DNA of 37,139 bases from the IMG/VR virus record IMGVR_UViG_3300037337_000109, positions 1 through 37,139 of that record; one strand, written 5' to 3'. The stretch comes from a virus. The translations under genes and the position numbers were made by a program. A model generated the notes under the pieces. The model had not been told where the DNA came from. It saw nothing but the letters and a program-made list of their open reading frames with translations, and made no database searches. Below, in pieces: positions 5,918 to 37,139 of the stretch; position 1 is the stretch's first letter; every line of letters begins with the position of its first letter.

Positions 5918-6558
5918 GCGACAAAAAACTGAAAACCGAAACTTGGCCACTTGCCAACATCACACCCTATGAGCTGAACGTCAAGAAGCACGACAAGGAA
6001 CAAGTTGCGCGCATTGCCGCTTCGATTTTGAAGAGCGGTTTTGACCAGCCAATCGTGGTAGACAAGAACGGCGTGATTATCAAGGGTCACGGTCGTCGCC
6101 TGGCACTCATTGAACTGGGTCGCACCGAAGCGCCGGTGATTATTCGTGATGATTTGAGTGCGGCGCAAGTTCGCGCCGCACGTCTGGCAGATAACCGTGT
6201 CGCCATTGGCGACATCGACACGGAAATGCTCAAAGTTGAGCTGGAAGACCTTGATTTCGATCTTCTGGAAGGTATTTTTGACGAAAAAGAACTCAATTTC
6301 ATAGTTGCCGACCTGGGTGACATGAATTCTGACTCTTTCGTCACCGACATGAACGCCGTTATCGCTGATCAAAAGACTGACATGACCGAGCGCGTGGCTA
6401 TTGCTGAAGGTGCCCGGGTGCCGCTGGCCAAAGCATTTGGCTTCAAAGACATCGCTGCGCGCGACCAGATTCACATCACCAAACTCATGGGCAAGGCGGA
6501 AAACGTCACTGGCTTGACTGGCGAAGAAGCCCTCACTACCTACATCGCCGCACTATGA
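5914..6558 (+). CDS. ParB-like N-terminal domain protein 2
   Basis: This 214-residue protein carries a second ParB-like domain. A GHGRR signature lies near residues 58-62, and LADNR near residue 90 is typical of phage and methylase-linked ParB-like proteins. It is not a close copy of the first ParB-like gene, which has GGEHRWR, so the two probably have different tasks. The C-terminal half is acidic. The start is GTG at 5914 with AAGGA upstream, overlapping the previous stop, and its end overlaps the ABC ATPase start by 4 bp. That direct coupling to the ATPase suggests a shared complex. Members of this fold may be nucleases or DNA-recognition subunits; I cannot tell which here. Confidence 0.8.
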   Translation: MSDKKLKTETWPLANITPYELNVKKHDKEQVARIAASILKSGFDQPIVVDKNGVIIKGHGRRLALIELGRTEAPVIIRDDLSAAQVRAARLADNRVAIGDIDTEMLKVELEDLDFDLLEGIFDEKELNFIVADLGDMNSDSFVTDMNAVIADQKTDMTERVAIAEGARVPLAKAFGFKDIAARDQIHITKLMGKAENVTGLTGEEALTTYIAAL

Positions 6559-7265
6559 GCGCCTACCTAATTGACAAGCGCTTCACCACGCGGGTGCAAC
6601 GATCCGACCGGGTGCTTGAGGTCGCCGAGGCGTTTGGCATCGGTCTGGAAGACAAAGAATTCGTTGTCTTTGACAACCTAACCTTGAATGTCAACCCCGG
6701 CGACGTGGTCTACATCACCGGTCAGTCGGGCGGGGGCAAGTCGGTGCTGCTGCGCGAGCTGTCTGCGCAGATGGCGGCCGAGGGGGCGCAGGTGGCCAAC
6801 CTGGACGATGTCGCCTTCACCGACATGCCCCTGATCAACCAGATTGGCACCGACACCAACGACGCGATCCGTCTGCTGGGCCTGGCCGGCATCAACGACG
6901 CCTACCTCTGGGTGCGCAAGCCCGCCGAGCTTTCGGACGGCCAGCGCTACCGCTTTCGCTTGGCCAAGGTGATCGAGACCGGGGCGATGGTCTGGGTCGC
7001 CGACGAGTTTCTGGCCGTGCTGGACCGCACCAGCGCGAAGGTGATTGCCTTCTCGCTCCAGAAGGTCGCGCGGCGCGCGGGCGCCACCGTGATCGTTGCC
7101 ACCACCCACACCGACATGGTGGCCGACCTGTGCCCCGATCTGTTCATCGAGAAGCGCTACCGCGAGAAGCTGCGCATCGAAGTCTTTGCCGACGCCCGTG
7201 CGCGCGCCAAAGAGAAAACCTGCACCCGTGACGAACTCAACGAACTTCTTTTAAAGGCCCTGTGA
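6555..7265 (+). CDS. ABC-type ATPase linked to ParB and GNAT
   Basis: This 236-residue protein is a soluble ABC ATPase without membrane segments. Walker A, GQSGGGKS, is at residues 56-63 and the LSDGQ signature at 126-130. Walker B ends in ADE at 149-151 and the switch histidine is H185. The N-terminal lead-in (VLEVAEAFGI, residues 20-29) resembles the ABC half of known bacterial ABC-GNAT proteins rather than transporter ATPases. It overlaps the second ParB gene, and a Mom-like GNAT lies four genes downstream. I infer an ATP-driven step in handling or scanning DNA, or in energising a base-modification complex. Biochemical function is unproven, but ATPase assignment is firm. A shared cassette promoter upstream of 4745 probably drives it. 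Confidence 0.9.
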   Translation: MSAYLIDKRFTTRVQRSDRVLEVAEAFGIGLEDKEFVVFDNLTLNVNPGDVVYITGQSGGGKSVLLRELSAQMAAEGAQVANLDDVAFTDMPLINQIGTDTNDAIRLLGLAGINDAYLWVRKPAELSDGQRYRFRLAKVIETGAMVWVADEFLAVLDRTSAKVIAFSLQKVARRAGATVIVATTHTDMVADLCPDLFIEKRYREKLRIEVFADARARAKEKTCTRDELNELLLKAL

Positions 7266-7850: not shown

Positions 7851-8146
7851 TGACCTACGAAGAACTGCTGGCCGGCGGCCAGAGCCACCTGGTGATGTTC
7901 TACGGCACCGCATGCGGCCCGTGCGCGCGCCTGAAGCCCCGCCTGGCCGCTCTGGCGGCTCGCAACGAGGTTTCTTACCACCAGATCAACGTCGCCTCGG
8001 ACATGGACGCCGTGCGCGCCCTGAAGCTGCGCAGCGTGCCCAGCCTGGTGCTGGTGCGGGCCGGGCGGGGTGAGCATGTCCACACCGGTGACGCCACCGA
8101 CGAGCAGATCGAGCAGATTCTGCGCGAGAAGGCGTTTCTGACATGA
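7850..8146 (+). CDS. Thioredoxin-like protein
   Basis: This 98-residue protein is a single thioredoxin domain. The active site CGPC is at residues 22-25, preceded by the usual Phe-Tyr-Gly/Ala strand, and the cis-proline SVPS lies near residues 64-67. It should reduce disulfides in the cytoplasm; there is no signal peptide. The frame is open from a TTG at 7838, but the ATG at 7850, overlapping the preceding stop as TGATG, is the better start and leaves a normal-length domain. It sits directly before the Mom-like GNAT, coupled by ATGA. It may supply electrons to a modification enzyme or keep it or a cysteine-bearing partner reduced. Phage thioredoxins also serve ribonucleotide reductases, but none is seen here. 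Confidence 0.9.
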   Translation: MTYEELLAGGQSHLVMFYGTACGPCARLKPRLAALAARNEVSYHQINVASDMDAVRALKLRSVPSLVLVRAGRGEHVHTGDATDEQIEQILREKAFLT

Positions 8147-9102
8147 GTGCCGCGCGCCACGAGCTGTGGACCCCCACGGTGGTCGAGCGCCGGGCTCGAC
8201 CACCCGCCGGCGTGAGTCTGAGCTTGCTCAAGCACATCTACGTCGAGTTTGGCACCAAGGCCGACTGGGACGCGCTCAGCATGCTGCACTACAAGGGCCA
8301 CACGTTGGCCGCCGGGAGTCGCTACGTGCGCTGCATGCTGGCCGAGCCGGGGTGCTTGCCCACGCTGATTGGAATCATGGTGTTTGCCTGCCCGCGGCCC
8401 CTGGACGGCGGGCGCAACGACGTGTTCCCCAAACTCAGGCCGAACGCAAATGGGCGCGACAACCGCATGATCAACCAGGCGAGGTTGAGATGGATCAACA
8501 GCAACATGACGTGGAACAACCGCACCGTGCTGGACACCATGTACCGCTCGGCCGGCATCGCCTACCGGTTCAAGAACCTGGCATACCGCCTCTACTGCGC
8601 CAAATACAAGCTGCGCTTTGTCGAGTCGCGCAGCTCGATGGGTCGCTTCAACCCATTCTCCATCAAGACCGGGATGGACTTCACCAAACCCCGACCCGCC
8701 GCGGCCTTATCAGACGGGCTGAAGTTCTTCGCTGGCCACTTTACAAGCTCTCCGCACGACAGCGTGGCCATTATGGAAGAGCTAGTGGCATTGCCACCTG
8801 GTGAGCGCGCACACATGGAACGCAAGCTGCGCGAGTTCTACTACAAGTGGTCCAGTGTGGAAAAGTCGGGCGACAAGCGCGACCTGGGCATGACCCGGGT
8901 GAACGAGCTGCCGATCGACTATGTTCTGAAGCAAGTCATGCAGCTGGTGTTTTCCGCCACTGTCTACTGGATTTGGAAAGTCGTCGACGAGCCGGCCACA
9001 CTTGGCACATCGCTACCGCTGAGCGCCTTTGACGACCAAGCGCCCCTAGCGCCGCTTGCGCACGATTGGACGGGCTGGACGCCCGCTCGGGTGCCCGCAT
9101 GA
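8143..9102 (+). CDS. Mom-like GNAT acyltransferase, predicted DNA modification
   Basis: This 319-residue protein shows a GNAT-type core resembling phage Mu Mom, which modifies adenine in phage DNA to block restriction. Visible landmarks are HY at 49-50 in a Mom-like context, a hydrophobic strand LIGIMVFACP (75-84), and an R-x-x-G-x-A acyl-CoA-loop pattern RSAGIA at 135-140. A Ser/Arg-rich motif ending in GRFNPF follows at 161-172. The C-terminal 140 residues are an added, mostly helical region. The start overlaps the thioredoxin stop (ATGA). The ABC ATPase, two ParB-like proteins and this GNAT together form the ABC-ParB-GNAT association seen in other phages. The fold is likely; the modified base and acyl donor are unknown, and Mom catalytic residues cannot be confirmed by eye. 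Confidence 0.65.
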   Translation: MSAARHELWTPTVVERRARPPAGVSLSLLKHIYVEFGTKADWDALSMLHYKGHTLAAGSRYVRCMLAEPGCLPTLIGIMVFACPRPLDGGRNDVFPKLRPNANGRDNRMINQARLRWINSNMTWNNRTVLDTMYRSAGIAYRFKNLAYRLYCAKYKLRFVESRSSMGRFNPFSIKTGMDFTKPRPAAALSDGLKFFAGHFTSSPHDSVAIMEELVALPPGERAHMERKLREFYYKWSSVEKSGDKRDLGMTRVNELPIDYVLKQVMQLVFSATVYWIWKVVDEPATLGTSLPLSAFDDQAPLAPLAHDWTGWTPARVPA

Positions 9103-26335: not shown

Positions 26336-29300
26336 ATGACAATGAAAAATACAACAATTCGCGGCGATAAAAAGGGCAAGTCTTCGGGCGGCGCAGTCGA
26401 GGCAGACGACACCCTGCGCTCGCGCGCCTATGCGCGGGTCATTGACGCCATCTCAGAGGGCGAGATCGAGGGGCTGGTTGACGGCTCAAAGTCGATCTAT
26501 CTCGATGGCACGCCCATTCAAGCCTCTGACGGCAGTTTCAACTTTGAATCGGTCACGGTTGATTTTCGCAACGGCACACAGGGCCAGCCCCACCTTGAGG
26601 GCTATCCGAGTATTCAAAACGAAACAGCCGTTGGGGTCGAGGTCAAGAAGATCACGCCTGTTACGAGGGTCATCACCAATTCAAACGTCGATGCCGTGCG
26701 GGTCAAGATTTTGATCCCCCAACTCTCAGAGCAAGACAAGAAGAATGGAGACCTCAAGGGCAGTTCGGTCAAGATTGCCATTGAGATCAAAGACGCCAAT
26801 GGCTCATTTATTCGGGTCGTTGAAGATCAGATCGTGGGCAAGACCATGTCCAGCTACGAGCGGGCGTATCGAATCGAGCTGCCCGGCGTTGCGCCCTGGA
26901 GCGTTCGCATGCTTCGCCTCAGCGAAAACAGCACCGACTCGGCGATCAACAACAAGACGTTCTTCAGCTCCTACACCGAGATCATCGACAGCAAGCTGAG
27001 CTACCCCAACACGGCGCTGGTCGGGTTGCGCATCGACGCCAAGCAGTTTGATTCGGTCCCGAGCCGGGCCTACCACGTCAAGCTGCTGCGCATCAAGGTT
27101 CCAAGCAACTACAACGCGCTGACCAGAACCTATGTCGGGTCGTGGGACGGCACGTTCAAAATCGAATGGTCCAACAACCCAGCCTGGTGCTTCTACGACC
27201 TGTTGACTGCCGAGCGCTACGGCCTGGGCGAGAACGTCCCAAGCGGGGCGGTCGACAAGTGGGCTCTCTACGGCATCGGCCAGTATTGCGACGAGATGGT
27301 CACAGACGGCAGCGGCGGTCTGGAGCCCCGCTTCACGATGAACGTCTACCTTCAGACGCGCCAAGACGCCTACAAGCTGCTGAACGACATGGCCAGCGTG
27401 TTTCGCGGCCTGCTCTACTACAGCGCCGGCTCAATCATCGCCAGTCAGGACGCGCCAAGCGACCCGACTTCGCTGTTCTCAAACGCCAACGTGATCGAGG
27501 GCGAGTTCTCTTACTCGGGCTCGTCAATCAAGGTGCGTCACACCGTGGCACTGGTGACCTGGAACGACCTGAACGACCTGGGGGCACAAAAGGTTGAGTA
27601 TGTCGAAGACGCGGCCGGCATCGCCAAGTACGGGGTCATCAACACCGAAATCGTGGCCTTCGGCTGCACTAGCAAGTCTCAGGCTCACCGGGTGGGTCGG
27701 TGGGCGCTGCTGTCTGAGCTGACCGAGACCGAGACCGTCACGTTTCAGACCGGTCTGGAGGGCGTTGCGGTCGCGCCAGGCAGCGTCATCAAGGTTCGGG
27801 ACAACTACCGTTACGGCAGACGCTTGGGCGGGCGCGTGGTGAGTGTTGACGGCACGACGATCACACTGGACTCCCCGATCGAAGTCTCGGGTGCAAAGAT
27901 TCATGTGGTGGGCGCCGACGGCGACCTGCACACGACCACGGTAAATGGCGACGGTGCGGTGCTGACGATGGGCGCTGCGATGGCGTCACCCGCCGTCAGG
28001 GGTGCAACCTGGGTGGTTCACATCGAGGGTGAGGCGCCACCCAAAGACTACCGCGTCATGGCGGTTTCTGACGCCGGCGACGGCACCTACCGCGTCACCG
28101 CCCTGGAACACAACAAGGATAAGTACGCGCTGATTGACGACATCACGCTGCTGGGCTCTTCTGGCGACATCGACGGCGACGGCGACGGCGCGGGTGGCGG
28201 CAACGGAGCGCCTAAAAAACCCAGCGATGCGCCATCGCCACCGACCGACGTTCAGGTAGTTGTCTCTCAGAGAAATACCGCTGGCGTCCAAAGCTACGAC
28301 ATCACAGCGTCCTGGAAACTTGAGGCCGGCAGCCCCATCTCTCAATGGGAAGTTCACCATCGGCACGACGACTCGAATCCGGTCGTTTTCAGGGATGTCA
28401 AGTACGCAACCCTCGACATAAAAGATGTCAAGACTGGCTACCACGTCATCAGCGTGCGTGCCGTCAATTCAAAAGGGGTGAAGTCAACCTGGACTGTCGC
28501 CCAGCCCGTCTACGCTGGTTCCAAAAAGGTGGGCACGGAATTTGCCAGCGCATCTGCAACACCGGCGTTTCTTGCGGTCAAGATTGCCTGGACCTTGCTT
28601 GAAAAGTTTGTGGAGCGCGTGCGCGCGGTTGAAATCTGGGGCCGGCTGGCAGACGCGCCCGGCGTTGACACCAGTGCGACCAACCCACCCAAGCTGTTGG
28701 CGGCTGTGGCCGGCCCTGGCGAAAGCTGGACACACACCGACCTTGACCCTGGCGTGAACTGGAGCTACAGCGTTCGCGCCACCTTTGCGCAAGAAGAACC
28801 AGGCTCTTTTTACCCAGAGTTTGCAATGATCGCGGCTGCGTCTGCAAACGTGAGCGACATCATTGACAAGCTCGATCAGTCCTTCAAAGACTCTCAGTTC
28901 TACAGAGACCTCACCAGCAGAATCGACGACATCAACATCCCGGGCCTGGATGAGATCACTGAGCTACTTGGCGATTTTTCATCCATCACTGGTCAAGTAG
29001 ACGAGTTTCGAGATCAGGTCGCCGAGACGATGAGCGATGTCTATGACCGCGTCGAAGAGTTGCGAAAAAACAGAGAGCGCGACGGCGAAATTCTTCTTCG
29101 TTCGGTCATTGTGGACGAAGAGGTTCGAGCCGAGTCGATCGACGGCATTGCCAAGGTGCTTGACGAGGTGGTCATTGTTCAAGATGGTCTCGCTCTGGAA
29201 GTGGTTCGCCGTCAAGAGCTGAATGTCGCCGTCGAGAACGCCGAAGCACTGATCATCACAGAGGGGCAAGTTCGAGCCGCTGAGAACGAGGCGCTTGCCA

Positions 29301-30871
29301 ACCAGACCAATCTCGTGAACGCGCGGGTGACAGCTGAGAAGATTGCAACGGAGGCGCTAATATCTTCTGAGCAAACCGCCAGGGCGACCGCGACAGAGGC
29401 GCTTGCTTCAGACATCAACGTCGTGAACTCTAGGGTAACGACCGAGAAGGGCGTGACGGACGCATTGATTCTGACCGAACGCACCGCCAGAACAACTGCC
29501 GACACAGCTACGGCGAATCAGATCAACATTGTTGACGCGCGGGTGACGACCGAGAAAGGCATCACGGAAGCCTTGGTTTTGACCGAGAAAAACGCCAGAA
29601 CAACTGCCGACACAGCTACGGCGAATCAGATCAACATTGTTGACGCGCGGGTGACGACCGAGAAGGGCGTGACGCAGGCGCTTGTGCTTCAAGAGCAAAA
29701 CACAAGAGTCACCCAGGACACGGCGCTGGCAAACAACATCACCACGCTCACGTCCCAGGTGACGACCAACAAGGCAGACGCAACGGCGCTTGTGCAGCAG
29801 GAGTCAAATACACGCGTCACAGCCGTCGGTTCGGTCGCCACCTCGGTCAACAACCTGGCGGCACGCTTCAACAACCTGAGCGGCACCGGGCAGACTGTCG
29901 AGTCGGTCATCATCAACGACCGCAACGCTGCAGCCAACGCCAATGCAGGCACAGCCTCGTCGGTCACGGGCTTGGTCACCCGCTTCGACACAATGGACCC
30001 CACGGGCAAGCCCTTCAACTCGGTCGAGGCGCGCGTCGCCAGGGAAGAGATCACAAGGGCCACCGCCGACACGGCACAAGCGAACCTGACCACCCAAGTG
30101 ACGGCGCGACTGAACAACGCAAGCGGCGCGGGCTCGGGCGTGACTGTAGAGCAAAATTTTGCAGCTTCCGCAACCGCCCTTGGCAACCTTCAGGGTCAGT
30201 GGACAGTCAAGCTCGACAACAACGGAAACGTGTCGGGCTTTGGTCTGGCTTCGACATCACCCAATGGTGTTCCTCACTCAAAATTTGCAGTCGCTGCCAA
30301 CCAGTTCTCGATTGCTCCACCCAGCGGCGGCACAGGCGTCGTGCCCTTTCAGGCATTCACAACGAATACAACAATCAACGGGGCATTTGTCCCAGCTGGT
30401 GTTTATATAACAGATGCCTTTATTCGCAGTGCTCAAATTGACACGTTGAAGATTGCCGGCAATGCAGTGACGGTTCCATCGTCTGTTAGCGTCCCGGGAA
30501 ATCACGTAGTCGTTCCAAGGTATCATCAGATCGGAGATACACTTATTTCATGGACGGAAGCTGCCGTCGTTTGGGTAGATTTCGGAACGTCCCCTGTAAG
30601 GCACATCACTGTAATTGGCAGTTTTAATTTGCTGTCAAATGTATCAGGCTTTACGTCTAGTTATCTTCGAGTGCGTCATCTTCAAAGCGGAGCGACTAGC
30701 AATGTTCCGGGTGTTACTCATAATAACAGCGTGATGTTGTTCATCGGTGACGCAATGGTTGCTTCGCTTATTGGCGTGAATGCGTTTGTTTTAGAGTTTG
30801 TGTCTCTTCAAGAGGGGGGTCAATACAGAAGGGGTGACGCATGGCTAACAATCTTGGGGTCTAAAAAATGA
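26336..30871 (+). CDS. Central tail-tip fibre, lambda gpJ-like
   Basis: This 1511-residue protein is the host-recognition tip. The N-terminal 550 residues have the gpJ/Phage-tail_3 pattern, opening with a YARVIDAISEGEIEGLVDG segment near residue 35. A Gly/Asp linker lies about 605-630. Fibronectin III-like domains follow (about 630-740 and 745-850). A helical region contains six copies of a 36-residue repeat (971-1186). A DUF1983-like module with GQWTVKLDNNGNVSGFGL lies near 1285. The last 170-190 residues are encoded by visibly AT-richer DNA and probably contain the receptor-binding tip. The ATG at 26336 is chosen as nearest the preceding stop; 26342 is an alternative. Confidence 0.93.
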   Translation: MTMKNTTIRGDKKGKSSGGAVEADDTLRSRAYARVIDAISEGEIEGLVDGSKSIYLDGTPIQASDGSFNFESVTVDFRNGTQGQPHLEGYPSIQNETAVGVEVKKITPVTRVITNSNVDAVRVKILIPQLSEQDKKNGDLKGSSVKIAIEIKDANGSFIRVVEDQIVGKTMSSYERAYRIELPGVAPWSVRMLRLSENSTDSAINNKTFFSSYTEIIDSKLSYPNTALVGLRIDAKQFDSVPSRAYHVKLLRIKVPSNYNALTRTYVGSWDGTFKIEWSNNPAWCFYDLLTAERYGLGENVPSGAVDKWALYGIGQYCDEMVTDGSGGLEPRFTMNVYLQTRQDAYKLLNDMASVFRGLLYYSAGSIIASQDAPSDPTSLFSNANVIEGEFSYSGSSIKVRHTVALVTWNDLNDLGAQKVEYVEDAAGIAKYGVINTEIVAFGCTSKSQAHRVGRWALLSELTETETVTFQTGLEGVAVAPGSVIKVRDNYRYGRRLGGRVVSVDGTTITLDSPIEVSGAKIHVVGADGDLHTTTVNGDGAVLTMGAAMASPAVRGATWVVHIEGEAPPKDYRVMAVSDAGDGTYRVTALEHNKDKYALIDDITLLGSSGDIDGDGDGAGGGNGAPKKPSDAPSPPTDVQVVVSQRNTAGVQSYDITASWKLEAGSPISQWEVHHRHDDSNPVVFRDVKYATLDIKDVKTGYHVISVRAVNSKGVKSTWTVAQPVYAGSKKVGTEFASASATPAFLAVKIAWTLLEKFVERVRAVEIWGRLADAPGVDTSATNPPKLLAAVAGPGESWTHTDLDPGVNWSYSVRATFAQEEPGSFYPEFAMIAAASANVSDIIDKLDQSFKDSQFYRDLTSRIDDINIPGLDEITELLGDFSSITGQVDEFRDQVAETMSDVYDRVEELRKNRERDGEILLRSVIVDEEVRAESIDGIAKVLDEVVIVQDGLALEVVRRQELNVAVENAEALIITEGQVRAAENEALANQTNLVNARVTAEKIATEALISSEQTARATATEALASDINVVNSRVTTEKGVTDALILTERTARTTADTATANQINIVDARVTTEKGITEALVLTEKNARTTADTATANQINIVDARVTTEKGVTQALVLQEQNTRVTQDTALANNITTLTSQVTTNKADATALVQQESNTRVTAVGSVATSVNNLAARFNNLSGTGQTVESVIINDRNAAANANAGTASSVTGLVTRFDTMDPTGKPFNSVEARVAREEITRATADTAQANLTTQVTARLNNASGAGSGVTVEQNFAASATALGNLQGQWTVKLDNNGNVSGFGLASTSPNGVPHSKFAVAANQFSIAPPSGGTGVVPFQAFTTNTTINGAFVPAGVYITDAFIRSAQIDTLKIAGNAVTVPSSVSVPGNHVVVPRYHQIGDTLISWTEAAVVWVDFGTSPVRHITVIGSFNLLSNVSGFTSSYLRVRHLQSGATSNVPGVTHNNSVMLFIGDAMVASLIGVNAFVLEFVSLQEGGQYRRGDAWLTILGSKK
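29246..29893 (+). repeat. 108-bp tandem repeats in the gpJ-like gene
   Basis: Six tandem units of 108 bp encode 36 residues each. The third and fourth are nearly identical at DNA level: 70 or so bases starting at 29485 recur at 29593. The outer ones are progressively diverged. Each unit has the frame AL-xx-TE...AR..T...A.AN...V..RVTTEKG, suggesting a trimeric helical shaft. Recent duplication of the central units is likely, so shaft length may vary. Confidence 0.9.
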
Positions 30872-31452
30872 ATTCAAATTACATTTCATATGATGTCAAC
30901 ACGGGCGAAATTCTCTCAAAAGGATACTCTCAGCTGTCTTTGCTTAATTTGCGCCCAGACGTAATTATCCTGGGGGGTGAGGGGGTGGACATCATGGGGT
31001 TTCGCGTTGAAAACGGCGCGCTTGTGGTGATGCCGCCTCGCCCCTCTCAACATCACGCTTTTAACTACGTCGTCAAACAGTGGGAAGACCCGCGCACGCT
31101 TGCTGATCACAAGAGCGTCAAGAACAGCGCCATCAACTCGGCCCGCCTGCAAGCCAACCAGGGCTCGTTCACCTACGAGGGCAAGCAGATCGCCACCGAC
31201 CCGCTGAGCCGGGGCGACATCGATGGCGCGCACGGGGACTGGCTGATCGGCAACGTACCAGCCGATTGGCCCGGTGGGTGGAAGACGATGGACAACACCT
31301 ACGTGGCAATCCCCGACCAGACGACTTGGTTCTTGTTCTACAAGGCCATGACCGCGCAGGGCACGGCCAACTTCATTCACGCACAAGCCCTCAAGGCGCA
31401 GCTTGATGCGGCCACGACCCCAGAAGAGGTCGAAGCGGTCCCGTCATGGTAG
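30868..31452 (+). CDS. Tail-fibre-associated protein, DUF4376-like
   Basis: This 194-residue protein has a short N-terminal part (1-70) and a C-terminal DUF4376-type domain (about 75-192). Its landmarks are INSARLQANQGSF, DPLSRGDIDGA, W..MDNTYVAIPD and AMTAQGTANFIHAQ. Members lie next to tail tip and fibre genes in many phages and are thought to be fibre-associated or chaperone-like. It overlaps the gpJ-like gene by ATGA, so it is made with it. The start of the gene is AT-richer and continues the composition of the gpJ tip; composition returns to normal after about 30960. Confidence 0.85.
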   Translation: MNSNYISYDVNTGEILSKGYSQLSLLNLRPDVIILGGEGVDIMGFRVENGALVVMPPRPSQHHAFNYVVKQWEDPRTLADHKSVKNSAINSARLQANQGSFTYEGKQIATDPLSRGDIDGAHGDWLIGNVPADWPGGWKTMDNTYVAIPDQTTWFLFYKAMTAQGTANFIHAQALKAQLDAATTPEEVEAVPSW

Positions 31453-31503: not shown

Positions 31504-33768
31504 ATGGCATGGTATAAATCTGGAAGCGTCGCACTCACAAACGGGTCGCGCAACGTGGTCGGCACCTCGACGAACTTTGTGCGCTTTGCTGAAGTCGGCG
31601 AGGCGATACTTCTCCCCGATGGTCAGGTCTACGAAATCGACCAGATTTCGTCTGCCACAGAACTGCGCCTGGCCCGCCCCTACGCCGGCCCAACCCTCTC
31701 TGACGCGACTTACTCGGTCGCACCCACGCAGGGGTATGTTCGAGAATTGGCATACAAGGCAGCGAACCTCATTGACCAGTACGGCGTGGTCAATGAGACC
31801 ACCGCCACCACGCTGACTGAGCTGACCAACACCCGCGATATTCTGGCCAACGCCTACGGGTCATTGGAGAATATGCAAACCGCGATCGACCAGGCAACAG
31901 GTGAAATTGAAACCGCCCGGGTCACGTCCCTTGGCGATGTTGATGCAGCCCGCACCACATCGCTGGCGCAGGTAGACACAGCGCGTCTTGGTTCACTGGC
32001 TGACGTTGAAGGCGCGCGCACCACATCGCTGACCAATGTGGAGACGGTCCGCACCGGCGCCCTTGATAACGTGGAAGCTGCACGCGCAAGTTCGCTTGCC
32101 GCGCAGTCGCTGGCAAGGGCGACTTCGCTTGCCGATGTCGAGGCTGCTCGTCTCGCCTCGCTTGCAGAGCAGGGGCTCAGTCGCGTCACGTCTCTTGCCA
32201 ACGTAGAGATGGCCCGCTTGAGCTCACTGTCTGATGTGGAGCAACTGCGCACCACCTCGCTGACTGACGTGTCGGCCCTGCGTCTGACCTCACTGACCGA
32301 TGTTGAGGCGAAGCGAGTGTCGTCTGTGGCATCTGTCGAGACAAAACACCAGGCGTCTTTGACATCGGTTGAGCTGGCACGAGTCACATCGGTCGATTCG
32401 GTTGAGGCGACCCGAAACTCCGTTCTTGCCTCGGTTTATGAGGCTGAAAATGCCGCCGTCGTGCATGTCGAGCAGGTGCAGGCAACTGCCACCGCAGACG
32501 TTGACGCCCACTCGGCAACCGCCCACACATCGCTCGAAGTGACACGCATGGCCGCCAACGCGACCATCGAGGTAACGCGGGTTGATGCCAACGCTTCTGT
32601 CGAAACAAAGCGGGTGAGCTCGATTGCCTCCGTCGAAGAAAAGCGTCTTTCCTCTGTGACCGACGTGACCGACACCCGGGTGAGCGCACTCAGCGCCATC
32701 GACATCGAGCTGAACAGGGTGGGTGCGCTTTCACTGTTGGCGCAGGGTAGTGCCTCAGCTGCCGCCAGCACCGCGCTGCATGTCGACAACGTGGCCATTC
32801 TGGTGGACGCATCGCGCGACGCCGCGACAGCCAGCGCCGCCGCAGCTCTAACATCTGCCGACAATTCCAGCGTCAGCGCCGCGCAGTCTGCGCTCAGCTC
32901 GACCGAGGCGACACAGCAGGCGACCGCATCAGATGTCTCGCGCGCCGAGAGTCTGCGACTGCACGACCTGACGCTCGGCTACCAACAGGCAGCGCAAGAC
33001 GCAACGGTCAACGCGATTGCAGTGGCAGAAGACCGCGCCGCGGCGGACGTCAGCGCCACAGCAGCTGCAGCCAGCGAAGCATCGGTCGAGACGAATCGAA
33101 TCGCCAGTGCAGCCAGTGAGCTGAATGCCGCCAACAGCGAATCAGCAGCCGCTGCCAGTCAGGTCGCAGCCGCTGCCAGTCAGGTCGCATCCGCTCTGAG
33201 CGAGACAAACGCCCGGTCAAGTGAACTTGCCAGCGCCGCCAGTGAGACTGTGGTGCTCGCCAAGACGGCGATTGTGCTCACCCAGAGCGAGCAGACGCGC
33301 CTGAACGCAGAGGGGGCGGTTCGAGATGCCGCGTCAACTGCTGCCGATCGCGCGGCCTCTGCCGCCTCTACCGCATCGGCTGCCGCGAGCGAAGACCTGG
33401 CGCGTCGCTGGGCCACGCAAGAGGTCACACCAGTAACGACGGACGCCCAGGGCAACCAGCTGTATTCGGCACGCTACTGGGCCAATTTGGCCGCCACCGC
33501 CGTCAGCGGCTCCATGTCGTACATGGGTGTTTGGGATGCGTCCACGGGGGCCTTGCCGAACGGCTTCGCAACTGGCCAGTTCTACAAGGTCGGCACCACC
33601 GGCGTGATCGACGGTGTGACCTACACCCAGCTGGATATGGTGATCTTCAACGGCTCGACTTGGGACCACATCGACAACACCGAAGACTTCACACAGGTTC
33701 AGACCCAGCTTGACGACATGACCAGGGAGCTTCGCGTGATCAAGGCACTGGCGATTCTTGGTCTGTGA
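31504..33768 (+). CDS. Long tail fibre with hendecad coiled coil
   Basis: This 754-residue protein is a side tail fibre or shaft. Residues 1-95 form a beta-rich attachment domain (WYKSGSVALTNGSRNV, then LPDGQVYEIDQI) common at the N-terminus of phage fibres. Residues 138-401 are 24 consecutive 11-residue repeats with the consensus (A)R.(T)SL.DVE(A), predicted to form a long right-handed coiled coil. Residues about 410-640 are Ala/Ser-rich and helical, like lambda Stf. The last 100 residues (from WATQEVTPV) form a compact C-terminal domain with YWANLAA and YMGVWDASTG. The receptor-binding part is presumably the separate downstream proteins. AAGGA precedes the ATG. Confidence 0.85.
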   Translation: MAWYKSGSVALTNGSRNVVGTSTNFVRFAEVGEAILLPDGQVYEIDQISSATELRLARPYAGPTLSDATYSVAPTQGYVRELAYKAANLIDQYGVVNETTATTLTELTNTRDILANAYGSLENMQTAIDQATGEIETARVTSLGDVDAARTTSLAQVDTARLGSLADVEGARTTSLTNVETVRTGALDNVEAARASSLAAQSLARATSLADVEAARLASLAEQGLSRVTSLANVEMARLSSLSDVEQLRTTSLTDVSALRLTSLTDVEAKRVSSVASVETKHQASLTSVELARVTSVDSVEATRNSVLASVYEAENAAVVHVEQVQATATADVDAHSATAHTSLEVTRMAANATIEVTRVDANASVETKRVSSIASVEEKRLSSVTDVTDTRVSALSAIDIELNRVGALSLLAQGSASAAASTALHVDNVAILVDASRDAATASAAAALTSADNSSVSAAQSALSSTEATQQATASDVSRAESLRLHDLTLGYQQAAQDATVNAIAVAEDRAAADVSATAAAASEASVETNRIASAASELNAANSESAAAASQVAAAASQVASALSETNARSSELASAASETVVLAKTAIVLTQSEQTRLNAEGAVRDAASTAADRAASAASTASAAASEDLARRWATQEVTPVTTDAQGNQLYSARYWANLAATAVSGSMSYMGVWDASTGALPNGFATGQFYKVGTTGVIDGVTYTQLDMVIFNGSTWDHIDNTEDFTQVQTQLDDMTRELRVIKALAILGL
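31915..32706 (+). repeat. Twenty-four 33-bp repeats coding hendecads
   Basis: An unbroken run of 24 units of 33 bp encodes 11 residues each, with hydrophobic residues at conserved places (Leu/Val at positions 6 and 9) and Arg at position 2 in most. No insertion or deletion breaks the period. Units 1-15 are the most regular; 16-20 are diverged; 21-24 return to consensus. Confidence 0.92.
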
Positions 33769-34159: not shown

Positions 34160-34426
34160 ATGACTGATGGTGAAACCCAAAATATCAGTCTTGGTGGCGC
34201 GCGTCTGCCGGCCACCTTGGCCAGCGACGTGTTCTACGGCTTTCGACTCGACTCGACAACGGGTCACCTGAACATCGAGGTGATCGGCAACGGCGCGGGT
34301 GTGGTGCAGCTGCCCCAGCCCGGCCAGATTGACCCGCTTGATTACAAGCAGTGGCTCTGGACCCCCGACACCCTGCAATTTCAATTCAACTCAACAAATG
34401 GACACCTGGAGATGACTGTTCTATGA
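34160..34426 (+). CDS. Small beta-rich protein before receptor-binding protein
   Basis: This 88-residue protein starts 3 bp after the previous stop and ends in an ATGA overlap with the receptor-binding protein gene. It has two short repeats of the form F.FRLDSTTGHLNIEV (about 26-40) and FQFNSTNGHLEMTV (about 74-87), i.e. two similar beta hairpins. Coupling to the following gene suggests a connector or chaperone of that protein. The family is unknown to me. Confidence 0.7.
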   Translation: MTDGETQNISLGGARLPATLASDVFYGFRLDSTTGHLNIEVIGNGAGVVQLPQPGQIDPLDYKQWLWTPDTLQFQFNSTNGHLEMTVL

Positions 34427-37139
34427 CCCAAATTATCGACCTCGGCAAGTTGCGCTTTAACTTTGCCGGCCCCTGGAGTGCCGCCACAGCTTATGAGCGC
34501 AACGATGTCGTCAAGTACGGTGGCAACATCTATTGCTACGTGTACACGCTTAAAGAAGCCACACGACTGCCTACGAACACGGTCTACTGGGCTTTGATGG
34601 TCAAGGGTATTGACTTCCAAGGTGTGTTTGTAGAAGAAACCCCATACCGCATTGGTGATGGTGTGGCACACGGCGGCAAGGTCTACGTGGCCATTGCGGA
34701 CTCGACAGGAGCCACTCCACCAAACACGGCAGTGTGGTCACAGTTTGTGGATGGCATTCAGTACGAAGGCGACTACACAAGTCTCTCGGCTTATCAGAAA
34801 AACGATGTTGTTAAGTACGGCGGTAGCATCTACATTGCCAAGCAAGACACCACCGGAAACTTGCCAAGCAATGCAACTTTCTGGGATCGTTTTGTTGAAG
34901 GCATTTCTTCACAAGGTGTGTACAACGCGGCTACCGCTTACGTGCATGGTGATTTGGTAGCTTACGGCGCTAGTATTTACCGGGCACTGGGCAACACAAC
35001 AGGCAACTTGCCAAGTAATGAGGCGTTTTGGATCAGGTTTGTGGCGGGTGTCGCGTTGCAGGGTGTGTACAACGCGGCTACCGCTTACGTGCATGGTGAT
35101 CAGGTGTCTTACGGCGGTAACCTGTTTCAAGCTTTAGGTGACACAGTAGGCAACTTGCCAACTGTAACGGCTAACTGGCAACCACTGCTGCAAAGCATTC
35201 GTCCTACAGGCAATTGGGAAACGGCTAAACCTTATTTTGTAAATGATGTGGTGAGCTACGGCGGCAACACTTTTATTTGTGTGCTGCTTCATGCGTCTGG
35301 CGTTTTTGCAACGGACCTTGGCTCTACAAAGTGGCAAAAGTTTAGCGGTGGCATCAACTGGCGCGATCAATGGACCGTATCTACTTTTTACCACATCAAT
35401 GATGTGGTGCGCAGTGGCGGCTCGGCTTACCTTGCCATTCAAGATCACACATCATCCGGGACTTTTACCGCGGACGTAGACTTGTGGCAACTGTTTGCAG
35501 TGGGGGGAGGTGATGTTCTGCCTCCCATTAATGCGCTGCTCGATCTGGGCAAATCCCTGACTGTAAGGGCAGACGGTAGTGGCTATGAGCTGGCTGCTGC
35601 AACGCTGTCTGCACACCGTCTGTACGTGGCCGTTACTGGGGTTGACGCTCCTGGTCGGGGCGAAAACCAAGCTGTTCCTCTTGCTTCTCTCAAGTACGCC
35701 TGCTCGTTGGCGACTGCGGGTACTGCCATTTTTGTTGCTTCGGGCAACTACTTGGAACAGCTGCCTATTACTGTGCCCGCAGGTGTGGCAATTGTGGGAG
35801 ACACCCAGCGCACAACCATCATTGGTCCCAAAGAAGGCAATGACGACACGGGCCTAGTTCCAAACTCCGAGTCAAGCATGTTCTTGTTGGGCAACGGTGC
35901 CCTTTTGAACAAAATGACTTTTAAGGGCTTGACTGGGTGGGTTCCTGGCGCTGAAGCAAAAGACATTACGACTTCAGTTATTAAAGCGGTGTACGTGCGC
36001 TTTGATCCAGCATCTCCAGTCACAACCAAATCACCTTACGTGATTGAATGCTCGGCAATTGGGTCTGGCGGCATTGGTGCTTTGGTAGACGGCTCTGTTC
36101 ATGACACTGGTTACAGAACTATCATCTTTCATGCATACACGGTGATCCAAGACAATGGCGTGGGTATCTGGTGTAAAGACGCAGGCAAATCTGAAATTGT
36201 TTCTTGCTTTACCTACTACTGCTACTTTGGCTATTCGTGCAGCGGTGGTGGCAATATTCGTGCTCTGAACGGCAACAACTCTTATGGTACTTGGGGTGTG
36301 TTTGCGCGCGGTTTTGATGCAGTCGAGCCTCCTATCACAGGCACGCTGGTAGGCCAACAGTTGAACTTTCTGTATGGAGGCGGCAGTATTTCTGTTGGTG
36401 ACACCGTAAGCAATGACTCGGGTGGATCGGCTGTTATCACCAACGCTCAGTTTTCAGCTAACAAGCTGTATGTCAAAGACGCCACTGGCACGTTTACTCA
36501 AGGTGACGAACTGACTTTTACTAGCGGTGGTCAGGGCACTGTTGCTCAAGGCGCACTGGAAGACCAGCAAGGCTTTCTGTTGATGGCTACTGGTTTCTCA
36601 GAAGTCCCCAAGCCAGGGGTTTCCTTGCAGCTTTCAGACGACACGTACTCTTATGTTGTTCAAAGCGTGTCGGGTACCTATGTTGACAGCCTAAGCGTTC
36701 TGGCCTTAGTTTTGGCGCAAGAAAAGCCAACAGGCTCTGCTGATGGGGCTGCTGTTACTTTGCGGTATCACTACAGTCAGATTCGTCTGACCGGCCATGA
36801 CTTTCTGAGCATTGGTACAGGTGGTTTTGTTACCACCAACTACCCAGGAAGGCCAACCCAACCAGCAGCTCAAGGCAATGAAACTGAAGAGGTGTTTCCT
36901 GGCCGCTGCTACTACGTGTCAACCGACCAAGACGGCAACTTCAGGGTAGGTGAGTATTTCAGGATTGATCAAGCCACGGGTCGGGCTACTCTGAACGCAT
37001 CGGCCTTTGACTTGTCTGGCCTTACCTCATTGAAACTTGGCTCCATTGGCGCTCAGTTGGGCGAAACCATTAACGAGTTTTCGTCTGACCCTACTTTGTC
37101 AGGTAACTCTAACTTGGCAATACCGACCGAAGCTGCGGT
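34423..37139 (+). CDS. Receptor-binding protein: CBM-like repeats and beta-helix, partial
   Basis: An open frame runs from the ATG at 34423 to the window edge with no stop, at least 905 residues. After a short lead (1-13), seven repeats of about 49 residues (to about residue 364) follow the pattern Y..GD.V.YGG..Y.A......N...W..F..G, as in CBM5/12-type carbohydrate-binding modules. A parallel beta-helix follows (about 395-640) with Gly/Ser/Val-rich coils. The visible C-terminal part (from about 830) resembles structural proteins of T4-like cyanophages (RCYYVSTDQDGNFRVG, then SAFDLSGLTSLKLGSIGAQ). DNA is visibly AT-richer than the operons to the left, so acquisition from another phage is likely. 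It probably binds surface polysaccharide. Confidence 0.85.
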   Translation, partial: MTQIIDLGKLRFNFAGPWSAATAYERNDVVKYGGNIYCYVYTLKEATRLPTNTVYWALMVKGIDFQGVFVEETPYRIGDGVAHGGKVYVAIADSTGATPPNTAVWSQFVDGIQYEGDYTSLSAYQKNDVVKYGGSIYIAKQDTTGNLPSNATFWDRFVEGISSQGVYNAATAYVHGDLVAYGASIYRALGNTTGNLPSNEAFWIRFVAGVALQGVYNAATAYVHGDQVSYGGNLFQALGDTVGNLPTVTANWQPLLQSIRPTGNWETAKPYFVNDVVSYGGNTFICVLLHASGVFATDLGSTKWQKFSGGINWRDQWTVSTFYHINDVVRSGGSAYLAIQDHTSSGTFTADVDLWQLFAVGGGDVLPPINALLDLGKSLTVRADGSGYELAAATLSAHRLYVAVTGVDAPGRGENQAVPLASLKYACSLATAGTAIFVASGNYLEQLPITVPAGVAIVGDTQRTTIIGPKEGNDDTGLVPNSESSMFLLGNGALLNKMTFKGLTGWVPGAEAKDITTSVIKAVYVRFDPASPVTTKSPYVIECSAIGSGGIGALVDGSVHDTGYRTIIFHAYTVIQDNGVGIWCKDAGKSEIVSCFTYYCYFGYSCSGGGNIRALNGNNSYGTWGVFARGFDAVEPPITGTLVGQQLNFLYGGGSISVGDTVSNDSGGSAVITNAQFSANKLYVKDATGTFTQGDELTFTSGGQGTVAQGALEDQQGFLLMATGFSEVPKPGVSLQLSDDTYSYVVQSVSGTYVDSLSVLALVLAQEKPTGSADGAAVTLRYHYSQIRLTGHDFLSIGTGGFVTTNYPGRPTQPAAQGNETEEVFPGRCYYVSTDQDGNFRVGEYFRIDQATGRATLNASAFDLSGLTSLKLGSIGAQLGETINEFSSDPTLSGNSNLAIPTEAA
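34462..35514 (+). repeat. Seven carbohydrate-binding-like repeats
   Basis: Units of about 147 bp encode about 49 residues each; the sixth and seventh are slightly longer. Units 4 and 5 are recent duplicates: 39 bases starting at 34915 recur exactly at 35062. Most units carry Gly-Asp/Asn-Asp-Val, Tyr-Gly-Gly and a final Trp, the ligand-binding type of residue in CBM5/12 modules. Confidence 0.88.

Follow-up and report, generated by a model that had tools for sequence, protein, structure and literature searches.

Tail fibres usually consist of three parallel chains. Among coiled coils, heptads give left-handed supercoils and an 11-residue (hendecad) period gives right-handed ones, as in tetrabrachion. 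For the protein discussed here, one of the closest described systems is the side fibre of the F2-pyocin (PDB 25ve and 25vj), a protein of 363 residues with the same N-terminal attachment module. A second point of reference is lambda orf-401, which shares with many relatives an Ala/Ser-rich composition and repeat lags of 7, 14 and 28 residues. For phage DT57C, PMC10713586 describes LtfA, the side fibre, as a three-helix coiled coil. Units of 11 residues are also found in the phiX174 H tube, where, according to the available part of PMC7354561, helical hendecads turn guanidinium and amide side chains inward; that tube is decameric and has three hendecads followed by heptads. Finally, the alpha/beta coiled coils, as presented in the accessible part of PMC4786415, place beta-layers at nonad or hexad spacing.

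The window (the whole analysed stretch of DNA, 37,139 bases) is a single IMG/VR virus record whose genes include those for terminase, portal, head and tape measure. Neither an Rfam nor a tRNA scan of all 37,139 bases gave a hit, and a search for its terminase in the records of four relatives, run without a positive control, found none. At 226–283, close to the beginning of an open frame of 240 codons, lies a 12-bp repeat (ACCGCCCCTAAG; 4.8 copies, 100%), and the ORFs at 6555–7265 and 8143–9102 match the PHROG 'ABC transporter' profiles phrog_293 and phrog_886. The tail genes of interest begin with a lambda-J-like central tail fibre/tip attachment protein of 1511 residues (26336–30871, plus strand; phrog_31, 2e-276; PF24801, PF13550 and PF09327). 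This protein contains 36-residue tandem repeats at 29433–29701 (108 bp, about 88% matches) in a predicted fibre part, with a lag-36 identity of 0.69 across residues 986–1135, and repeats of similar wording (AARVAAEQGLTNAIATNEATRLSDAATEQ) also occur in an unrelated fibre (L200) of another virus record. A 194-residue tail protein (30868–31452) follows, and the next ORF, the second gene downstream of the J-like protein as in tail-module gene order, encodes a side tail fibre protein of 754 residues (31504–33768, plus strand), which matches the PHROG tail-fibre profiles phrog_2712 (6.1e-21) and phrog_1980 (6e-11).

Its N-terminal attachment module (31504–31785, plus strand; residues 1–94) also occurs in fibres of Pseudomonas phages and in the side fibre of the F2-pyocin. 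PDB chain 25ve_A, the F2-pyocin side fibre, matches residues 1–96 (E 1.4e-13); the significant match stops at residue 96, and no counterpart of the hendecad array discussed below is reported there. The module is also matched by 45 phage records, 44 of them from Pseudomonas phages, which align to the N-terminal part of the fibre only (both among the matches listed, 40 of the 45). Because an attachment module of the F2-pyocin type is combined with a position after the J-like gene, the identification of the protein as the side tail fibre of a lambda-type siphophage is well supported by homology. The sequence-only reading had taken the protein for a phage fibre with a long shaft, and the attachment-module homology, the tail-fibre profiles and the gene order all speak for that assignment.

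Beyond the module, a predicted helix (31798–31914, plus strand; residues 99–137, part of an AlphaFold2 helix spanning 99–313) leads into the hendecad array, which is followed by an Ala/Ser-rich helical shaft of heptad type (32707–33417, plus strand; residues 402–638; AlphaFold2 helices 337–579 and 591–638). Local autocorrelation of residues 402–638 gives lags of 7, 14, 21 and 28, like lambda orf-401/Stf. The Ala/Ser heptad pattern that defines the lambda Stf type is confined to this second half, the first half being the 11-residue array. The protein ends in a small C-terminal domain with a terminal helix (33430–33765, plus strand; residues 643–754). By tblastn, these 112 residues have matches in 34 phage records (20 listed), in tail-fibre and minor tail proteins. 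In the AlphaFold2 model this part has strands at 694–702 and 705–713 and a helix at 726–753, all at low confidence. A protein of Aeromonas phage P5 likewise carries the matching domain after an Ala/Ser-rich stretch but continues into a long distal part, whereas the present fibre ends there, which suggests that its distal adhesin is a separate polypeptide. A candidate for that role is the downstream fibre ORF (34351–37137, plus strand, open at the window end), which is separated from the side fibre ORF by two short ORFs and contains five CBM_5_12 stretches and DUF1565. This downstream ORF is most like fibres of cyanophages and marine viruses, and its neighbour has the Pseudomonas-type attachment module; judged by these sequence affinities, a mosaic is possible.

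The hendecad array itself (31915–32706, plus strand; residues 138–401) was delimited by autocorrelation and unit matching and is helical in both AlphaFold2 models. It consists of 24 in-frame units of 11 residues with the consensus ARVTSLADVEA, 264 residues in total without a single insertion or deletion. The lag-11 identity is 0.419, and the maximum reached at any lag from 2 to 40 in 2000 shuffles is 0.191. The earlier description of 24 uninterrupted hendecads thereby holds in full, and the array is a real, unusually long hendecad run in a phage side fibre. Its edges are sharp (three 11-mers on each side match the consensus at 1–3 of 11 positions), and within it the units match at 2 to 10 of 11. 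Position 5 is Ser or Ala in 23 units, position 9 Val, Ile or Leu in 22, position 2 Arg in 20, position 6 Leu, Val or Ile in 20, and position 10 Glu or Asp in 19 of the 24.

At the DNA level the repetition is far less apparent. Tandem Repeats Finder lists no array at the hendecad region, adjacent units share a mean DNA identity of 51%, and the conserved residues are encoded by many different synonymous codons; the 20 Arg2 residues, for example, use CGC 8 times, CGG and CGT 4 times each, CGA 3 times and AGG once. Taken together, these observations rule out a recent DNA duplication as the origin of the array and indicate that the repeat is old and has been kept at the protein level. Opposite the hendecads, a 177-codon open frame on the minus strand (31854–32387) encodes a Ser/Ala-rich mirror of the 11-mer, which is probably a by-product of the repeat and its codon use.

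Is the array helical, and is it one continuous rod? Given a single chain without relatives, AlphaFold2 leans towards helix for sequences of this kind, and both of our predictions were made in that way. The model of the whole protein, computed without an alignment and of low overall confidence (mean pLDDT 54), has helices at 99–313, 337–579 and 591–638, with a gap at 314–336. Residues 110–419 alone give a single unbroken helix, with block-mean pLDDT values of 88–95 over fragment residues 21–160 and of 62–69 from fragment residue 211 onward. Residues 96–655 include only 1 Pro and 12 Gly. An alpha-helical hendecad segment is thus likely by prediction, and the beta structure that would have spoken against the sequence-only reading does not appear in this segment of the models. 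The shaft of about 40 nm proposed there agrees with the arithmetic for the array (264 × 1.5 Å), but the helical shaft as a whole is roughly twice as long because the Ala/Ser-rich helical part comes after the hendecads; residues 99–638 would span about 80 nm if the helix is continuous (540 × 1.5 Å).

Units 16–20 had been put forward as a flexible hinge. They do diverge (4, 3, 5, 2 and 3 consensus matches of 11), Arg2 is missing in units 14 and 17–19, and the weak spot narrows to the degenerate units 17–19 (32443–32541, plus strand; residues 314–346), through which the 11-residue register is nevertheless maintained. The full-length model breaks the helix here, whereas in the fragment model the pLDDT drops to the 60s and the helix runs on unbroken. 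The divergence part of the proposal therefore stands, and units 17–19 may be a weak point or hinge, for which the two disagreeing models make an ambiguous case.

The nature of the core is where we depart from the sequence-only reading, which envisaged the classical arrangement, a right-handed coil of hendecads around an apolar core, similar to tetrabrachion, and expected the hydrophobic Fourier spectrum to peak at 11/3. At that period the power is near nil on three scales, 0.1 (Kyte-Doolittle), 3.5 (Eisenberg) and 1.7 (Fauchere), and the peak lies at 11/4 instead (53.7, 51.5 and 62.7, respectively). The 11/3 peak is absent because a conserved Arg, present in 20 of 24 units, sits between the apolar positions. 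On the 11/3 wheel, positions 3, 6 and 9 are split by Arg2 and Glu10, so the sequence does not display a plain apolar-core hendecad, and any register that places both Leu6 and Val9 in the core necessarily buries Arg2. The flawless 11-residue period across 264 residues, the predicted helix and the aliphatic residues taken alone (power 15.8 at 11/3, still below 52.6 at 11/4) do fit a classical core, which we nonetheless consider unlikely.

Conservation tells a different story from hydrophobicity. Small residues have their largest harmonic at 11/3 (power 20.1), and so does per-position conservation (harmonic 3, permutation p 0.019). The five positions of lowest entropy, Ser5, Val9, Arg2, Leu6 and Glu10, are adjacent on the 11/3 wheel (chance 0.024, from the same data as the conservation p value and hence not independent of it); on the other four wheels (harmonics 1, 2, 4 and 5) they are not contiguous. 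The constraint thus looks like that of one face of an 11/3 helix with a mixed character, with Val and Arg near the middle, Ser/Ala on one side and Leu/Glu on the other. In other words, the fold class proposed earlier is probably right, and a textbook apolar core is not supported.

The reading that we favour, at somewhat better than even confidence, is a side tail fibre with an alpha-helical 11/3 hendecad shaft that has a polar, ion-paired inner face and passes into an Ala/Ser heptad shaft. Going by homology with the F2-pyocin side fibre, residues 1–94 would attach the fibre to the tail, and residues 99–638 would make the long, predicted helical shaft, assumed to contain three parallel chains; by analogy with other tail fibres, the hendecad part is probably trimeric. 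In its first half, hendecads would hold the 11/3 helical geometry. Val9 would point towards the axis with Ser5 and Arg2 on its flanks, the edges of the interface would be occupied by Ala1 and Leu6, and Glu10, together with Asp8 in many units, would pair with Arg2 of its own or an adjacent chain. On the inner face, each unit would present a single apolar residue (Val), a small one (Ser/Ala) and an Arg. The interface would be polar and ion-paired, with an apolar layer every 11 residues in place of an oily a/d/e/h core. With its 11/3 period the rod would be nearly straight, with a slight right-handed twist. The second half would be an Ala/Ser heptad shaft of the lambda-Stf type, the trimer would be closed off by the small C-terminal domain together with the terminal helix, and receptor binding would probably fall to the CBM-bearing fibre encoded separately downstream. 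A more specific version, in which a right-handed trimer has a charged core of about 20 stacked Arg/Glu layers, with a single layer of Val between each and the next, is possible, and we put it forward only tentatively.

Alternatively, the protein could be helical without any hendecad supercoil. The 11-mer would then just record the unit of past duplications, and the chains would pack loosely, without a fixed register, in the Ala/Ser heptad manner of lambda Stf. The relatives of the fibre are informative here. Related shafts with the attachment module are likewise weakly patterned in hydrophobicity. We compared 166 proteins that share the module (6 from the 45 phage records, together with the 80 best of 587 IMG/VR matches and the 80 best of 101 genome matches). 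Two units of a loosened motif spaced 11 residues apart were found in none of the 166, which speaks for this reading. Repeats in these relatives are often 7, 14, 21 or 28 residues long, and the highest lag-11 identities (0.38 in L018 and 0.36 in L020) occur in Ala/Thr-rich stretches in which lag 21 is stronger. Against such loose packing, the register never slips in 264 residues, specific positions are constrained despite the spread of synonymous codons, and the constrained positions are contiguous on the 11/3 wheel. We therefore regard this reading as improbable.

Searches beyond the attachment-module relatives paint a similar picture of rarity. A strict two-unit DNA pattern had no matches in IMG/VR (and 4 in the window itself), which, as the pattern depends on codon choice, shows only that close copies are rare. 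Seed searches in IMG/VR and tblastn in phages and plasmids yielded no true relative of the repeat, and no repeat match turned up among 399 genomes from the family to which Comamonas testosteroni belongs, in a search without a positive control. A looser three-unit pattern hit 45 loci, and a closely similar 11-mer was found only in one IMG/VR fibre and its near copy (L200 and L185). These have at least six units of the type A-R-V-x-x-x-A-x-V/I-E-A, and the L200 units (ARVAEAAAIEA) keep Arg2, Val/Ile9 and Glu10. They differ from our fibre in their N-terminus and neighbourhood, and their units are Ala-rich and nearly identical. As Arg/Glu hendecad arrays in other virus records, they could test the register independently. 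The other loci were set aside as different or apparently non-coding repeats or as chance matches. Among the matches from the other searches, those in Zymomonas are a 33-bp DNA repeat with the annotated gene on the opposite strand, two further loci (L002 and L003) appear to be leucine-rich surface repeats, presumably of the BspA type, and a plasmid match (H50) is an annotated pentapeptide-repeat protein. Literature searches for an 11-residue repeat in a coiled tail fiber and for an F-pyocin side fiber found nothing.

One lead came from the PDB. The stalk repeat of 6h9l (LRKATKEDIEA), an uncharacterised protein that we take to belong to the DUF1640/MCUR1 group, is unrelated to the fibre but has Arg, Ile/Val, Glu and Asp at matching positions; it departs from our consensus at position 1 (Leu) and position 6 (Lys), and at E 0.1 the match is a lead only. 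The same alignment bears on the idea that the helix is not continuous, the array being either beta-rich or a coiled coil of the alpha/beta kind, in which beta-layers separate short helices. The stretch Ser5-x-x-Asp8-Val9-Glu10 is similar to T-K-x-D, a motif of beta-layer proteins, as given in the accessible part of PMC4786415 and in the 6h9l alignment, and the second strongest Kyte-Doolittle harmonic, 11/5 or 2.2 residues, is strand-like (power 11.3). Yet the period of 11 differs from the nonad and hexad spacings described in that part of PMC4786415, so the array lacks the spacing and beta-layers that characterise alpha/beta coiled coils there. Fragment 110–419 is moreover predicted as an unbroken helix, and residues 96–655 are nearly free of Pro with only a dozen Gly. 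All in all, we consider an interrupted helix very unlikely.

We also fitted a crude burial model, a straight parallel bundle of 2–10 chains compared with position shuffles. The hendecad repeat fits worse than about 90–100% of the shuffles in all bundles from 2 to 10 chains. Heptad windows (23 in total: 21 from same-family fibre relatives, lambda orf-401 and the fibre's own Ala/Ser part) gave mean correlations of 0.44 and 0.55, and three of them (L022, L102 and L130) scored about as low as the hendecad repeat on at least one scale. Since neither of the two control repeats, from phiX174 H and from 6h9l, did better than shuffling, the model is unfit as a discriminator and was dropped. A many-chain helical barrel with Arg2 lining the lumen is scarcely credible, as the attachment module and gene context favour a side fibre and the best burial fit for the 24 units, at 10 chains, reaches a correlation of just 0.26–0.31 that about 90–96% of shuffles equal, even if Arg2 is flanked by two apolar seams on the wheel and the H tube, in the available part of PMC7354561, combines hendecads with a lumen lined by amide and guanidinium groups; the residue pattern of that tube is in any case unlike that of the present fibre.

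Should the packing be ordinary, the fibre would still hold an unusually long hendecad array. If the polar, ion-paired packing is true, an ion-paired hendecad geometry would be usable in long phage fibres, and the array would offer a template from nature for straight helical rods of great length as well as a test of how far the hydrophobic a/d/e/h rules of coiled coils can relax. It would also mean that one and the same attachment module takes shafts of quite different geometry.
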